Assembly: GCF_000706765.1 (NCBI RefSeq)
Contig: NZ_CP006018.1
Coordinates: 992,001-1,056,000, forward strand
DNA: 64,000 nucleotides
Direction: 5' to 3'
Source: Bifidobacterium [indicum] DSM 20214 = LMG 11587
Lineage (GTDB): Bacteria; Actinomycetota; Actinomycetes; Actinomycetales; Bifidobacteriaceae
Shown here: one piece after another, positions 1,836-43,624 of the stretch
Layout of the letters: the number at the start of each line of letters is the position of its first letter
Position numbering within the stretch: position 1 is the stretch's first letter
Program-made: the position numbers and the translations under genes
The notes under the pieces: generated by a model
Databases searched by the model: none
What the model saw: only the letters and a program-made list of their open reading frames with translations
Told to the model about the DNA's origin: nothing

Positions 1836-2663
1836 ATGAACATGAGCATCATCGACCCGCATTGGATGGACACCCTGACGGCGCCCTTCATGGTCCACGC
1901 TTTTATGGCCGGGCTCTTCATCTCCATCGCCGCAGGGGCCATGGGATACTTCACCATCGCACGTCATTCCACCTTCGCGGCCCACGCCCTGGCCCATATC
2001 GGCCTTCCAGGCGCCACCGGAGCCGTGCTCCTTGGAATTCCCGTCTCCGCCGGGCTTGGACTCTTCGCCCTCGGCGGTGCCCTGGTCATCGGGGCCCTGG
2101 GCAAAAAAGCCTCCCAACGCGAGATTGCCACCGGTACCGTCCTGGCCTTCGCCACAGGCCTGGGACTCTTCTTCGCCAGAATGTCCAGCTCGGCCTCACA
2201 ACAGATGCAGTCCATCCTCTTCGGATCCATCCTGACCATCACCAAGGGCCAGGTCATCGGTTTCCTGATATTCGACCTGGTCCTTCTCACCGTCCTGGCC
2301 GTGATCTACAGACCCCTCCTCTTCAGCTCCCTGGACGAGCAGGTGGCCCAGGCCAGAGGGGTACCGATTGGGCTCATGAACCTGGTCTTCATGGCCATCA
2401 TGGCCGGAGTCATCACCATTGCGGTCCCTGCGGTCGGGACCCTGCTGATTTTTGCGCTGGTCATCACCCCCGCCGCCACCGCCAACATCTTCGCCGCATC
2501 GCCTCTCAGGTCCATGCTGCTCTCGGGGCTTATCTGCCTGGTATCGATCTGGGGCGGCCTGGTTCTCTCGGCCATGTTCCCGGCTCCACCCAGCTTCATC
2601 ATCGTGACCATTTCCACCCTCTTCTGGGCCCTGGGCAAGGGGTGGGAAGCCATCAGCCGCTAA
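1836..2663 (+). CDS. Zinc/manganese-type ABC transporter permease (ABC-3 family)
   Basis: 275-residue polytopic membrane protein of the ABC-3 family (ZnuB/MntC-like) with about seven to eight hydrophobic segments. The family's conserved regions are visible: the early HSTFAAHALAHIGLPGA stretch and the DEQVAQARGVP segment followed by an A-V-G-T-L-L membrane motif. ATG 1836 has a close upstream site (GGGAGGAGTTTC) and follows the ATPase gene by 16 bases. It should form the membrane channel dimer driven by the upstream ATPase. The operon seems to end here: the next gene, ispF, is convergent and its stop is 65 bases away. Confidence 0.9.
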   Translation: MNMSIIDPHWMDTLTAPFMVHAFMAGLFISIAAGAMGYFTIARHSTFAAHALAHIGLPGATGAVLLGIPVSAGLGLFALGGALVIGALGKKASQREIATGTVLAFATGLGLFFARMSSSASQQMQSILFGSILTITKGQVIGFLIFDLVLLTVLAVIYRPLLFSSLDEQVAQARGVPIGLMNLVFMAIMAGVITIAVPAVGTLLIFALVITPAATANIFAASPLRSMLLSGLICLVSIWGGLVLSAMFPAPPSFIIVTISTLFWALGKGWEAISR

Positions 2664-2728
2664 GGGCAAGGCACACGAATCCGATCAACACCAGCGCAGG
2701 AATCTTCCCGAGCGTTCGGAACAGGGAA

Positions 2729-3259
2729 TCAGACCGCCTCTCGGCGGCGCACCAAGGCGGTCGCCATGGCAGCGACCCCTTCACCGCTACCGGTGAATCC
2801 CAGTCCGTCCGTCGTGGTGGCCGTCAGGGAAACCGGCGCCCCCAGAGCCCGGCTCATGGCCTCCTGGGCCTGGTCACGGCGCGCGGACAGGCGCGGGGCG
2901 CGAGCAACCACGACCACCGAGGCATTTATCAGGGACCAACCATGTTCGCGGAGAAAATCTGCCGTCCAGCGCAGCATTTCGGCACCATGCATGCCTGCGC
3001 CTTTGGATTGCGGACCCTGACCGAAATGAGAACCGATATCGCCCAGGTGTGATGCCGACAGCATGGCATCGATCAGCGCATGGACGGCAACGTCACCATC
3101 GGAGTCACCCGCAATGCCCGGCGTGCCATCATCCCACTGCAGGCAGGCCAGCCATAGGGGGCGTCTTTCGCCGGAATCGGCGAACCTGTGGGCATCGAAA
3201 CCTATGCCGGTCGATACATCCGGAATCATCCGATCCGGGTCCTCCCCTGCGGACGGCAT
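2729..3259 (-). CDS. ispF: 2-C-methyl-D-erythritol 2,4-cyclodiphosphate synthase IspF
   Basis: 176-residue enzyme of the non-mevalonate isoprenoid pathway, converting CDP-methylerythritol 2-phosphate to the 2,4-cyclodiphosphate. The metal ligands of the family are present: D22 and H24 in G-F-D-A-H-R-F and H60 in D-V-A-V-H-A-L. The C-terminal TTTDGLGFTGSGEG motif is intact. The usual length is about 160 residues, so the first ten residues may be surplus; Met11 is an alternative start. It begins 5 bases after the carD stop and is probably co-transcribed and translationally coupled with carD. The carD-ispF order is a known actinobacterial arrangement, but the ispD gene often found between them is missing here. 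Confidence 0.95.
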   Translation of the reverse strand: MPSAGEDPDRMIPDVSTGIGFDAHRFADSGERRPLWLACLQWDDGTPGIAGDSDGDVAVHALIDAMLSASHLGDIGSHFGQGPQSKGAGMHGAEMLRWTADFLREHGWSLINASVVVVARAPRLSARRDQAQEAMSRALGAPVSLTATTTDGLGFTGSGEGVAAMATALVRRREAV

Positions 3260-39319: not shown

Positions 39320-39322
39320 TAT

Positions 39323-39476
39323 GGTCAGTCGGTAGGTGAAGCTACCGCATGGACACGGCCTGCTGCCGCAAAATGGTGGAGACACCCTGCGCAGGTCAAC
39401 AGTCCCCGTCGGATCAAGGCTGGGACTAATGCAGAGCCAAATGCCATGCGAAGCCGAAGCTTGAACGATGACGACC
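39323..39476 (+). promoter_or_regulatory. M-box (ykoK leader) magnesium riboswitch
   Basis: The 5' leader reproduces the conserved elements of the M-box in order: TAGGTGAAGCTACC (about 39332-39345; B. subtilis has TAGGTGAGGCTCC), CATGGACACGG then CTGCTGCC (39360-39367), AAAATGG with a GGTG-GAGA-CACC hairpin, GGTCAACAG (39394-39402), TAATGCAG (39427-39434), AAATGCCATGCG, GAAGC and CGATGACGACC. The P1 ends pair as GGTC-A-GTC (39323-39330) with GACGACC (39470-39476). Binding of Mg2+ is expected to compact the aptamer and switch expression off. The leader is 230 bases long and precedes an ABC transporter operon. Identification rests on recalled alignment with the B. subtilis mgtE element, not on a covariance search. 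Confidence 0.93.
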
Positions 39477-39477
39477 C

Positions 39478-39496
39478 AGTCGGCCTTGCGCCGACT
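39478..39496 (+). other. Hairpin after the M-box (possible expression platform)
   Basis: AGTCGGC (39478-39484) and GCCGACT (39490-39496) form a perfect 7-bp stem with a 5-base loop directly after the P1 stem. It is followed by TTCTG, a poor U-tract. The 3' P1 strand and this hairpin could compete. The operon start codon at 39556 has AAGGGAGG upstream, so both termination and Rho-dependent or translational control are possible. Confidence 0.6.
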
Positions 39497-39555
39497 TCTG
39501 CATGCCATCCTCAAGGTTGCCGACAAAGACATCCGCACCTTGAAGGGAGGCCATA

Positions 39556-41319
39556 ATGCGTCTACAGGCACCAATCATTCGACACACCATCACCCTGAAC
39601 GATGACCGAAAACAGGCCTCCCCTGGCACCAGGATCCTGACCAGTTTCGCGGTTGCATTGGGAGCCATGGCCCTCTTCGGAGCCATCGCCTACATCCTTC
39701 CGGGTTTCTCGGCCCCGATCGGTCCGTCAGGCATACCCTCGCACGTATCGACGGATCCCTCCAACCTGCCCTATTACGCCCTCCGCTCGGTGTTCAGGAT
39801 GTTCATCGCACTGGTGTTCTCCCTGATCTTCGCCTTCGTCTATGGGTTGGCGGCGGCCAGGTCCAAGCGCCTGGGAACCGTTCTGATCCCCCTGCTGGAT
39901 ATCCTCCAATCGGTGCCGATTCTGGGTTTCCTCTCGGCGACCATCTCCATCTGGCTGGTCATCTTCCCCGGGTCGATCCTGGGTGTTGAGGCGGCATCCA
40001 TCTTTGCCATCTTCACCAGCCAGGCATGGAACATGGCCTTCTCCTTCTACAACTCCCTGACCACGGAGCCGTCTGACCTGGATGAGGCGGTCAGAATTCT
40101 GCGACTGACCCGGTGGCAGCGCTTCTGGAAGCTGGATGTTCCCAACTCCATGATCCCCCTCCTCTGGAACTGCATGATGAGCGTGGGTGGGGGCTGGTTC
40201 TTCCTGACGGCCTCGGAGATGATTTCGGTGAACAACCGGACCCTGACCCTTCCCGGCATAGGTTCGTATGTGGAAGAGGCTGCCGGTGAGCAGAACCTGG
40301 GCCGGGTGGGCCTGGCCATCCTGACCATGATCATCGTGGTGGTCCTGATTGATTTCGTACTCTGGAAGCCACTGACCGCCTGGGCCGAGAAGTTCCGGTT
40401 GACCCAGAACCAGTCTTCGGAACCACGCAGGAGCCTGGTGCTGACGGTCCTTCGGCTCTCGGGAATCAACGATCAGCTGGCCCGCCTGGGGCGGCCGATT
40501 TCGTACGCTCTTGACAGGATCACCCGACCCTTGGGCAGGACCGGAGCCCGGTGGAAGGTCCAGAGCAGGAAGAGCCGTGCCGGCGACCTGATTTGGTATA
40601 TCCTTGTCGGTCTGGCCTGCCTCTGGGGCATCTGGGAGCTCTTCGACCTGATCAAAACGACTGTGGGATACGGAGAGGTCGGTCATGCCCTCCTCCTGGG
40701 TTGCCTGACCTTCATCAGGGTGGTTGTCCTGATGGTGATCTGCTCCCTTATCTGGGTTCCGATCGGTGCCATCATCGGTATGAATCCGAAGATATCGCGG
40801 ATCCTCCAGCCTGTGGTGCAGATCCTGGCCAGCTTCCCGGCCAACTTCATCTTCCCCTTCATCACCCTCATCTTCGTGGCCTGGAAAATCGACATCAACT
40901 GGGGAAGCATCTTCCTCATGGCCCTGGGTACCCAGTGGTACATCCTCTTCAATGTCATTGCAGGGGCTTCGGCCATTCCCGATGACCTCCTGGAGATGTC
41001 GCGCAGCCTCAAGCAAACCACCTGGCAGCGATGGAAGACCCTTATCCTCCCCGCCGTCTTCAGCTCTTGGTGCACAGGTGGCATTACGGCAGCCGGTGGT
41101 GCCTGGAACGCGTCCATCGTCTCCGAGGTGGTCACCTACGGAAAGACCGAACTGACCGCCAAGGGACTGGGTGCCTACATCGCACAGTTCACCGCCACCG
41201 GCGACATGACCCGGGTGATGGTGGGCGTGGTCGTGATGAGCGTTTTCGTTGTGGCGGTGGACCGCCTCTTCTGGACGCCCATGCAGAGCCTGGCCCGCCG
41301 GCGCTACGCCCTGAACTGA
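39556..41319 (+). CDS. Fused two-domain ABC transporter permease (NitT/TauT-like) under M-box control
   Basis: 587-residue membrane protein with two complete BPD_transp_1 domains in one chain (about 60-280 and 350-580), each with five to six helices. Each half has an EAA-type coupling loop: D-E-A-V-R-I-L-R-L-T-R-W-Q-R-F-W-K-L-D-V-P near residue 178 and L-E-M-S-R-S-L-K-Q-T-T-W-Q-R-W-K-T near 486. It should form the whole membrane channel for the ATPase encoded next. Database relatives are usually annotated as nitrate/sulfonate/bicarbonate transporters, but no binding protein is encoded nearby and the leader is an M-box. The likely substrate is therefore Mg2+ or a related cation or complex; this is inference. 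AAGGGAGG precedes the ATG. Confidence 0.87.
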   Translation: MRLQAPIIRHTITLNDDRKQASPGTRILTSFAVALGAMALFGAIAYILPGFSAPIGPSGIPSHVSTDPSNLPYYALRSVFRMFIALVFSLIFAFVYGLAAARSKRLGTVLIPLLDILQSVPILGFLSATISIWLVIFPGSILGVEAASIFAIFTSQAWNMAFSFYNSLTTEPSDLDEAVRILRLTRWQRFWKLDVPNSMIPLLWNCMMSVGGGWFFLTASEMISVNNRTLTLPGIGSYVEEAAGEQNLGRVGLAILTMIIVVVLIDFVLWKPLTAWAEKFRLTQNQSSEPRRSLVLTVLRLSGINDQLARLGRPISYALDRITRPLGRTGARWKVQSRKSRAGDLIWYILVGLACLWGIWELFDLIKTTVGYGEVGHALLLGCLTFIRVVVLMVICSLIWVPIGAIIGMNPKISRILQPVVQILASFPANFIFPFITLIFVAWKIDINWGSIFLMALGTQWYILFNVIAGASAIPDDLLEMSRSLKQTTWQRWKTLILPAVFSSWCTGGITAAGGAWNASIVSEVVTYGKTELTAKGLGAYIAQFTATGDMTRVMVGVVVMSVFVVAVDRLFWTPMQSLARRRYALN

Positions 41320-41356
41320 AACAGAACAGACATATTGAAAGCAAAAGGACAAGAAC

Positions 41357-42751
41357 ATGACCAAGATCGAAGTCAAGAACACCGCAACCATGACCGCAGG
41401 CACGGACCGCGCCCCCATCATCCAGGCCGAACAGGTGAACAAGACCTACAAGTCCGACGCCGGCAGTGACCTGAACGTGCTCGACTCCATCGATTTCACC
41501 CTGCACGAGGGAGAAGTGGTGGCCATCCTCGGCAGGTCCGGCGCCGGCAAGTCCACCCTGCTGAGGATTCTGGCCGGTTTGGTTCCCGCAAGCTCGGGCA
41601 AGGTATCCTACCGAGGCAAGGAACTGGCCGGTCCCAATCCAGGTGTCGCCCTGGTCTTCCAGAGCTTCGCCCTGATGCCCTGGCTGACCGTCAAGGACAA
41701 CGTGGAGCTTGGACTCCAGGCCCGCGGGGTGCCCAGGGCCGAACGGGAACGCCTGGCCCTGGCCGCCATCGACGCCATCGGATTGGACGGGTTCGAATCC
41801 GCCTACCCCAAGGAACTCTCCGGAGGCATGCGCCAGCGTGTGGGCATCGCCCGTGCCCTGGTGCTCAAGCCCGATGCACTCTTCATGGATGAACCTTTCT
41901 CCGCCCTGGACGTACTGACCGCCGAGAATCTCCGCCAGGAGGTGCTCAAGGTCTGGTCCGAGGAGGCCGGGAGCATCCGGTCCGTGCTTCTGGTGACCCA
42001 CAACATCGAGGAGGCCGTCGAGATGGCCGACCGGGTCGTCGTCCTGGGATCCCACCCCGGCAGGGTCATCGCCGATGTGCCGATCAAGATGGAGCGGCCG
42101 CGCGACAAGCAGTCCGACATCTTCCAGTCCAGTGTGGACTACCTCTACTCGATCCTTACCGGGCAGAACAACACCGAGGACATCCGCAAGCAGCTACAGA
42201 CCAAGGTCCGCAACAAGGAGGCCGTGCAGAACTCCCTGCGCGACGAGAACATGACCGAGAAGAACCTGCCCGATGCCACTCCGGGTGGGTTGGCCGGACT
42301 TGCCGACGTACTGGTGGACCATCCCAAGGGGATCGATCTGGCCGATCTCGCCGCCCAGCTCTCCTTCGAGGTGGATGACCTCTTCCCCCTGATAGACGCC
42401 GGGCTGATGTTGGGAATCTTCCAGGCCGATAACGGTCACATCTCTCTGACCAGCCTCGGGCAGACCTGGCACGATGCCGACATTCTGGAAAGCAAGGAGA
42501 TGTTCTCGCAGATGCTCCTGGACAGGGTGCCCCTGATCCGGGTGATTGACCGGGCTCTGAGAAACAGCGAGCACGGCAATCTGCACGGCAGCCTTATCCT
42601 GGACCTGCTCCGTTCGCACCACTCCGACAAGGAGGCCATCCAGCAGTTCGAGACGGCCATAACCTGGGGCCGATACGGTGAGCTCTTCGACTACGATGCC
42701 GACGACGACCGGCTGACCCTGACGGCCGAGGATACCCAGGGGGCCGAATAA
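41357..42751 (+). CDS. ABC transporter ATPase with C-terminal AAA-associated domain
   Basis: 464-residue ATPase partner of the upstream permease. The nucleotide-binding domain has Walker A G-R-S-G-A-G-K-S-T (59-67), Q-loop V-F-Q-S-F-A-L-M-P-W, signature L-S-G-G-M-R-Q-R, Walker B A-L-F-M-D-E-P-F and H-loop V-T-H-N-I-E-E-A. Residues about 300-460 form an extra winged-helix-like region that looks like the AAA-associated domain (PF09821-type) seen on some NitT/TauT-family ATPases. That domain may regulate activity, for instance by sensing the transported ion. AAGGA precedes the ATG. It starts 37 bases after the permease stop and ends 4 bases before the first crcB gene. Confidence 0.88.
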   Translation: MTKIEVKNTATMTAGTDRAPIIQAEQVNKTYKSDAGSDLNVLDSIDFTLHEGEVVAILGRSGAGKSTLLRILAGLVPASSGKVSYRGKELAGPNPGVALVFQSFALMPWLTVKDNVELGLQARGVPRAERERLALAAIDAIGLDGFESAYPKELSGGMRQRVGIARALVLKPDALFMDEPFSALDVLTAENLRQEVLKVWSEEAGSIRSVLLVTHNIEEAVEMADRVVVLGSHPGRVIADVPIKMERPRDKQSDIFQSSVDYLYSILTGQNNTEDIRKQLQTKVRNKEAVQNSLRDENMTEKNLPDATPGGLAGLADVLVDHPKGIDLADLAAQLSFEVDDLFPLIDAGLMLGIFQADNGHISLTSLGQTWHDADILESKEMFSQMLLDRVPLIRVIDRALRNSEHGNLHGSLILDLLRSHHSDKEAIQQFETAITWGRYGELFDYDADDDRLTLTAEDTQGAE

Positions 42752-42755
42752 GCCC

Positions 42756-43259
42756 ATGGCTCACGGGCAAAGCAGGGATAGGAACACGGGCGAAGCCGTC
42801 GGAACGACCGGTGGGTCCTCGCCCGAGGGGCCCCGGTTGGGCATGGGCCTGGTGGTCTTCATCGGAGGAGCACTGGGGACCTGGCTGCGCTGGGTTCTGG
42901 GTGGTATTGCCGCCCCTATTGGCGGCTTCCACCCAGGCACCTTCCTGGCAAACATGCTGGCCTGCACCGGCTACGCCTTCCTGACCTCTTACCTGGCCGC
43001 ACGGACCGATATCGCCAGGCAACGGAGGGACTACACCGGTCGGGCCCTGGGCATGGGCCTGTGCGGGGGGCTTTCCACCATATCGACGATGGTGGTCGAG
43101 GTTATCCAGGATGTGATGGAAGGTCATATCCTGGGCTCGTTCGTCTATCTTCTGAGCAGTTTCATACTGGCACTCGCTCTTGCCGCCGTCATGGCTGAAC
43201 TCGGCCAGACGGCGGCGGGGCGTCGTCCGCACGGAACATCAGCAGGTGAGAGCCGATGA
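42756..43259 (+). CDS. crcB: CrcB/Fluc fluoride channel subunit, first copy
   Basis: 167-residue protein of the CrcB/Fluc family, dual- or antiparallel-topology channels that expel fluoride. Four hydrophobic segments follow a ~28-residue polar N-terminal extension; family motifs are G-G-A-L-G-T-W-L-R-W, T-F-L-A-N-M-L-A-C and G-L-C-G-G-L-S-T-I-S-T. The proper start could be nearer residue 30. Tandem crcB copies that form heterodimers are known in many Gram-positives. It is 4 bases after the ATPase gene, so it belongs to the M-box operon. No fluoride riboswitch is seen nearby. Confidence 0.9.
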   Translation: MAHGQSRDRNTGEAVGTTGGSSPEGPRLGMGLVVFIGGALGTWLRWVLGGIAAPIGGFHPGTFLANMLACTGYAFLTSYLAARTDIARQRRDYTGRALGMGLCGGLSTISTMVVEVIQDVMEGHILGSFVYLLSSFILALALAAVMAELGQTAAGRRPHGTSAGESR

Positions 43260-43624
43260 CCACCCTGCTGATTTGCGTGTGCGGAGGTCTCGGTGCCAGC
43301 CTGCGGTATCTGATTGACACCGCCATCAAAGCCCGTTGGGGAGGCCCTTTCCCCCTCTCCACCCTGGTCATCAACCTATCCGCGGGATTCTTCGCAGGCC
43401 TGGTTGCCGATCTCTTTTCTCAATCCCTTATGGGTCCTCAAATCCATCTACTTCTGGCAACAGGACTCTTGGGAGGCTTTTCAACCTTCTCGACAGCCAT
43501 CAACGAGGTGGTGGTCATGCTTCGGGTACAGGCCCGACCAATGGCAATCTGCTACTTCCTGGCCTGCCTGATTCTCCCCATTGCGACCGGCGTTCTGGGA
43601 TACCTCCTGGGCGGCCTTTTGTAG
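43256..43624 (+). CDS. crcB: CrcB/Fluc fluoride channel subunit, second copy
   Basis: 122-residue, four-helix fluoride channel subunit of normal length with V-C-G-G-L-G-A-S-L-R-Y-L, L-V-I-N-L-S-A-G-F and G-L-L-G-G-F-S-T-F-S-T. It overlaps the first copy by four bases (ATGA), so the two are translationally coupled and made in equal amounts, as a heterodimeric channel needs. The inverted repeat at 43641-43659 probably ends the operon. Confidence 0.92.
   Translation: MTTLLICVCGGLGASLRYLIDTAIKARWGGPFPLSTLVINLSAGFFAGLVADLFSQSLMGPQIHLLLATGLLGGFSTFSTAINEVVVMLRVQARPMAICYFLACLILPIATGVLGYLLGGLL

Follow-up and report, generated by a model that had tools for sequence, protein, structure and literature searches.

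ABC importers of the NitT/TauT type, such as CmpBCD, NrtBCD, SsuBC and TauBC, feature separate permease halves and a binding protein, lack a tandem winged-helix domain and transport oxoanions. The ferric importer FbpBC (9j4r), which uses a binding protein, possesses a fused double permease and has an ion as substrate. The dedicated bacterial Mg2+ importers known to date comprise CorA, MgtE, MgtA/B and NrmT, with no ABC transporter among them, and phrase searches for Mg2+ ABC transporters in the literature returned four incidental mentions only. Genes encoding NrmT, MgtE, MgtA and CorA are found under the control of M-box riboswitches. M-boxes are nearly always located upstream of Mg2+ transporter genes, and NrmT, an NRAMP relative for which Mg2+ transport was predicted from its M-box, was discovered through one apparent exception to this rule (PMC4072509). 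Occasionally, M-boxes control other genes, such as a Mycobacterium pe/ppe operon, and the first translational M-box platform was reported for M. tuberculosis (PMC12810186).

The architecture addressed here was described in 2012 for Candidatus Liberibacter asiaticus as "a possible novel ABC system" (PMC3688454). The corresponding Nrt/Ssu/Tau-like genes CLIBASIA_02415/02420 (COG4986 and PF09821) encode the same fused double permease and PF09821 ATPase, no binding protein being present; no regulator or substrate was described there, whereas a Mg2+ riboswitch precedes the genes studied here. For the Liberibacter crescens permease, no transposon insertions were recorded, and the gene appears on a list of essential genes (PMC4837290). 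For Bifidobacterium breve UCC2003, an M-box in the 5' UTR of the COG4986 permease gene of Bbr_0406-0407 was reported in 2017 (PMC5746004); that report goes as far as metal ion homeostasis, without comparison across phyla or with CorA and MgtE. Hence, the transporter type (2012) and one M-box link (B. breve, 2017) are already known, while the M-box pairing across phyla, the CorA/MgtE pattern and the interpretation of the C-terminal ATPase domain as an acidic tandem winged-helix module are new.

Within the window, that is, the whole analyzed stretch of 64,000 nucleotides from Bifidobacterium indicum DSM 20214, the transporter is encoded by two genes on the forward strand. The first gene (39556-41319) encodes a protein of 587 amino acids harboring two BPD_transp_1 cores (Pfam), confirming the original prediction that both membrane halves are fused in one chain. 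The second gene (41357-42751) encodes an ABC ATPase of 464 amino acids, in which the nucleotide-binding domain (ABC_tran at residues 42-181, Pfam) with intact Walker A, LSGG signature and Walker B motifs in its sequence is followed by the predicted extra C-terminal domain, identified as AAA_assoc_C (PF09821). The best NCBIfam relatives are TauB, SaoA and NtrCD. Features of type I NitT/TauT systems, namely the BPD_transp_1 permease core and an ABC ATPase of the Tau/Nrt/Ssu type, are present. All Pfam matches of the pair belong to ABC families and none to CorA, MgtE, MgtA or NrmT; these M-box-linked importers share the riboswitch-controlled gene with the present system, for which Mg2+ uptake is proposed, but represent unrelated protein families.

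The upstream neighbor of the permease gene is a divergent flavodoxin-fold oxidoreductase gene. Downstream of the ATPase gene, two overlapping crcB/Fluc-like genes (both PF02537, forward strand) are located at 42756-43259 and 43256-43624, and the first of them is probably co-transcribed with the transporter. The neighbor table showed that this gene is not conserved beside the transporter outside the close clade, and a role of the transporter in fluoride transport, as suggested by crcB, was rejected for this reason. Fluoride transport is also disfavored by a close relative (L002), where crcB has its own fluoride riboswitch. This element, located between the ATPase gene and crcB (L002:8146-8218), scored 34.2 bits against a gathering score of 34; no fluoride riboswitch match was obtained in front of crcB in the window. 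Within the overlapping pair (42756-43624), GGLSTIST occurs in the first copy versus GGFSTFST in the second, as if only one copy kept the phenylalanines of the fluoride pore.

Upstream of the permease gene, an M-box (ykoK-leader) Mg2+ riboswitch aptamer was identified at 39320-39479 on the forward strand (RF00380; 99 bits, E-value 9.7e-21; Rfam gathering score 44). Its end is separated from the permease start codon by 76 nt on the same strand, and it represents the single RF00380 match in the 1.73 Mb genome. Among 151 Bifidobacteriaceae genomes, 30 contain an M-box, one copy each, and all 30 lead into this permease, two of them on contigs too short to include the ATPase domain. For 28 of the M-boxes, PF09821 follows at a distance of 2.8-3.5 kb, in the same orientation and on one contig with the riboswitch. 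PF09821 exceeded the cut-off in 46 of the 151 genomes, 29 with and 17 without an M-box, corresponding to a co-occurrence with a Fisher p of 5e-18, uncorrected for kinship.

Outside this family, PF09821 was detected in 11 of 141 Geobacterales genomes, five of which contain an M-box at the same spacing as in Bifidobacteriaceae; the downstream permease was confirmed in three of these loci and is assumed from the spacing in G193 and G201. In a sixth genome (G183), an M-box is present and a transposase gene lies between it and the transporter, whereas two of the remaining genomes have the transporter at contig ends and three have no M-box. At locus L149 of a Geobacterales genome, the transposase gene separating M-box and transporter occupies positions 2042-3064. 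Further Geobacterales M-boxes, as far as loci were examined and assignable, reside upstream of genes encoding MgtA-type P-type ATPases and NRAMP proteins, in keeping with Mg2+ uptake. Fully supported branches separate the two M-box groups from each other in a tree of 81 permeases. In the same tree, the permeases of L015 (Arcanobacterium) and L018 (Atopobium) group with Gardnerella, which suggests horizontal transfer.

Furthermore, 80 homologous loci (850 kb) were searched with a custom M-box model, and all 15 matches obtained were positioned directly before the permease gene. This result also counts against Mg2+ import, since most homologues outside the two groups are devoid of an M-box (present in 15 of the 80 loci overall), which may reflect the rarity of the riboswitch there. 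No hidden M-box was found upstream of five M-box-less homologues at a permissive threshold, and when 38 loci from other phyla were searched, the only riboswitch detected in front of the transporter was the M-box of L031.

The leader between aptamer and permease gene (forward strand) is predicted to fold into two hairpins. A short GC-rich hairpin (AGTCGGC/GCCGACT) immediately past the aptamer, at 39478-39496, is possibly part of the expression platform; nine distinct relatives retain its stem, both partners of one base pair being exchanged, and covariation did not exceed that of shuffled alignments. In the second hairpin (39504-39551), the permease Shine-Dalgarno sequence (about 39543-39550) pairs with an upstream CCTC. 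This stem is kept within the clade, where relatives are too similar for a covariation signal, and it probably represents a candidate translational OFF platform in this clade. In many bifidobacteria, a short open reading frame of 35-49 amino acids with a strong Shine-Dalgarno sequence lies approximately 230-270 nt past the M-box start (L118-L122, L097, L098, L103, L095, L099), encoding MDDVPHHS... in L118-L122 and MDSDSAHQSD... in L097/L098. This reading frame is missing from the window's clade and resembles the situation in M. tuberculosis, where a uORF likewise accompanies the M-box.

As claimed before, no substrate-binding protein is encoded among the open reading frames in or beside the transporter genes. 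In 79 homologous loci from at least six phyla the ATPase gene directly follows the permease gene and no third gene is conserved, the two-gene unit being represented in Actinomycetota, Cyanobacteriota, Acidobacteriota, Vulcanimicrobiota, Chlorobiota, Thermodesulfobacteriota and Pseudomonadota. Since permease and ATPase alone are conserved across phyla, absence of the binding protein is regarded as a trait of the family and not as a local loss. An ordinary NitT/TauT oxoanion importer borrowing a binding protein encoded elsewhere would be compatible with the TauB, SaoA and NtrCD relationship and with an orphan NMT1-type binding protein and permease in the genome that have no adjoining ATPase. The only strong NMT1-type binding protein of the genome (G000:291969), however, is paired with a separate permease and was rejected as a shared component because it has this partner of its own, and the second PF09084 match is, by sequence and neighbors, an ATP phosphoribosyltransferase-like (HisG) gene. 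The search of the genome for PF09084 revealed no co-regulated binding protein that would have contradicted the original prediction. A pair of an NMT1-type binding protein and a permease, with no ATPase among adjoining open reading frames of at least 200 amino acids, was noted at L123:4927-6806 (minus strand). Moreover, none of the 80 homologous loci contains a recurring binding protein beside the transporter, none was found in Liberibacter either (PMC3688454), and borrowing would leave the M-box regulation unexplained; it is therefore considered improbable. The conserved two-gene unit and its control by a Mg2+ riboswitch instead support the earlier suggestion of an importer of a different kind, and the riboswitch makes an ion the likelier substrate than an oxoanion.

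The permease was modeled with a pLDDT of 82 and is predicted to adopt the type I importer fold, with FbpBC, CmpB and NrtB as nearest folds. FbpBC is nearest over the whole chain and differs in sharing 17% identity and lacking PF09821. Alignment of 81 homologues revealed invariant polar or acidic positions, e.g., E145, Q156, N159, E221, Q460, N466 and E524. A point against Mg2+ import is that the substrates of the nearest solved relatives are bicarbonate, nitrate or ferric ion and that these relatives use binding proteins. The fold also bears on the alternative of an exporter or envelope-stress transporter protecting against bile, whose Mg2+ switch would mirror membrane stress. In the original work on Bbr_0406-0407, expression in Lactococcus lactis reportedly resulted in better bile survival. 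The B. breve genes are cited as encoding a bile-stress transporter in PMC13368793. Yet the fold is that of importers, members of the family occur widely among bacteria from soil and water, and an improved Mg2+ supply could by itself raise bile tolerance, so that a dedicated bile function appears rather remote.

The C-terminal domain of the ATPase (42257-42748, forward strand; approximately residues 301-464, with PF09821 at 330-447, E-value 4.9e-35) was modeled from 65 homologues with a pLDDT of 92 as two winged-helix units in tandem. No solved structure related to this domain was found by sequence. The top Foldseek matches were the recognition domains of BpuJI and FokI (TM 0.50-0.57, best E-value 1.2e-3), which are winged-helix proteins. 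The predicted fold agrees with the winged-helix result obtained by HHsearch in 2012 (PMC3688454). Given these three lines of evidence for the fold, the domain might bind DNA and the transporter might double as a transcription regulator. However, the core carries a mean net charge of -13.8 across the 65 homologues, and the first recognition helix contains on average 0.03 Lys/Arg and about three Asp/Glu residues; the basic recognition helix or surface typical of DNA-binding winged-helix proteins is lacking. The acidic core and the near absence of basic residues in this helix argue against DNA binding, which was rejected as the role of the PF09821 domain and is highly improbable, but would be compatible with ion sensing or with contacts between subunits. 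A regulatory function or the sensing of an ion is therefore more probable than binding of DNA, and the domain possibly senses the transported ion.

With respect to other Mg2+ importers, the genome encodes one CorA and no MgtE, and no MgtA exceeded the cut-off. Across the 151 Bifidobacteriaceae genomes, CorA is present in 124 and MgtE exceeded the cut-off in none. Within group g14 (Bifidobacterium group, probably Gardnerella), all seven CorA-less genomes, which are 1.5-1.7 Mb in size and 99-100% complete, keep the PF09821 transporter; they are closely related and represent few independent events. Against a general need, the transporter was below the cut-off in 105 of the 151 genomes, and 20 genomes contain neither CorA nor the transporter, indicating that it is not generally required and that other Mg2+ routes exist. 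Other importers are possible in CorA-less genomes, P-type Mg2+ ATPases having been searched in the window's own genome. These distributions also bear on the alternative of a Mg2+-responsive transporter of another solute wanted in Mg2+ starvation, such as a Mg2+-chelating anion, a polyamine, phosphate or an envelope component. Such a solute would fit the closest families, which are oxoanion importers, and the M-box control of mycobacterial pe/ppe genes (PMC12810186); the remaining Geobacterales M-box targets seen, however, are cation transporters, and the transporter is kept in the seven CorA-less g14 genomes, which renders this explanation unlikely, although less so than those discussed above.

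Mg2+ import is the best explanation in view of the repression by Mg2+, the recurrence in two phyla, the company of known cation importers and the retention where CorA was lost, with NrmT as precedent; the main caution is that control by Mg2+ need not mean that Mg2+ is transported. For substrate and direction of transport alike, we infer from sequence comparisons, with moderate confidence, that the pair represents a binding-protein-independent ABC importer of Mg2+ repressed by Mg2+. The proposed system would be an ABC importer of the type I fold with Mg2+, or a complex of this ion, as its dedicated substrate. At high cellular Mg2+, the M-box would fold and the operon would be shut down, in this clade probably at the level of translation via the Shine-Dalgarno hairpin, whereas permease and ATPase would be produced once Mg2+ falls. 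The fused permease with its 12 helices would then form the pathway, driven by one ATPase dimer, and no binding protein would be needed for entry of the ion. Activity would most likely be tuned by the acidic tandem winged-helix domain, e.g., as an ion-sensing or dimer-locking brake. Whether these properties define a further class of Mg2+ importer, an ATP-driven, M-box-repressed ABC system that works without a binding protein and has an acidic, possibly Mg2+-sensing tandem winged-helix domain as its gate, is an evenly balanced proposition. If the Mg2+ assignment is true, it would name a large orphan family that has been without an assigned substrate since 2012, provide an example of ABC import that does without a binding protein, and offer a possible explanation for the Mg2+ supply of CorA-less Gardnerella-type genomes.
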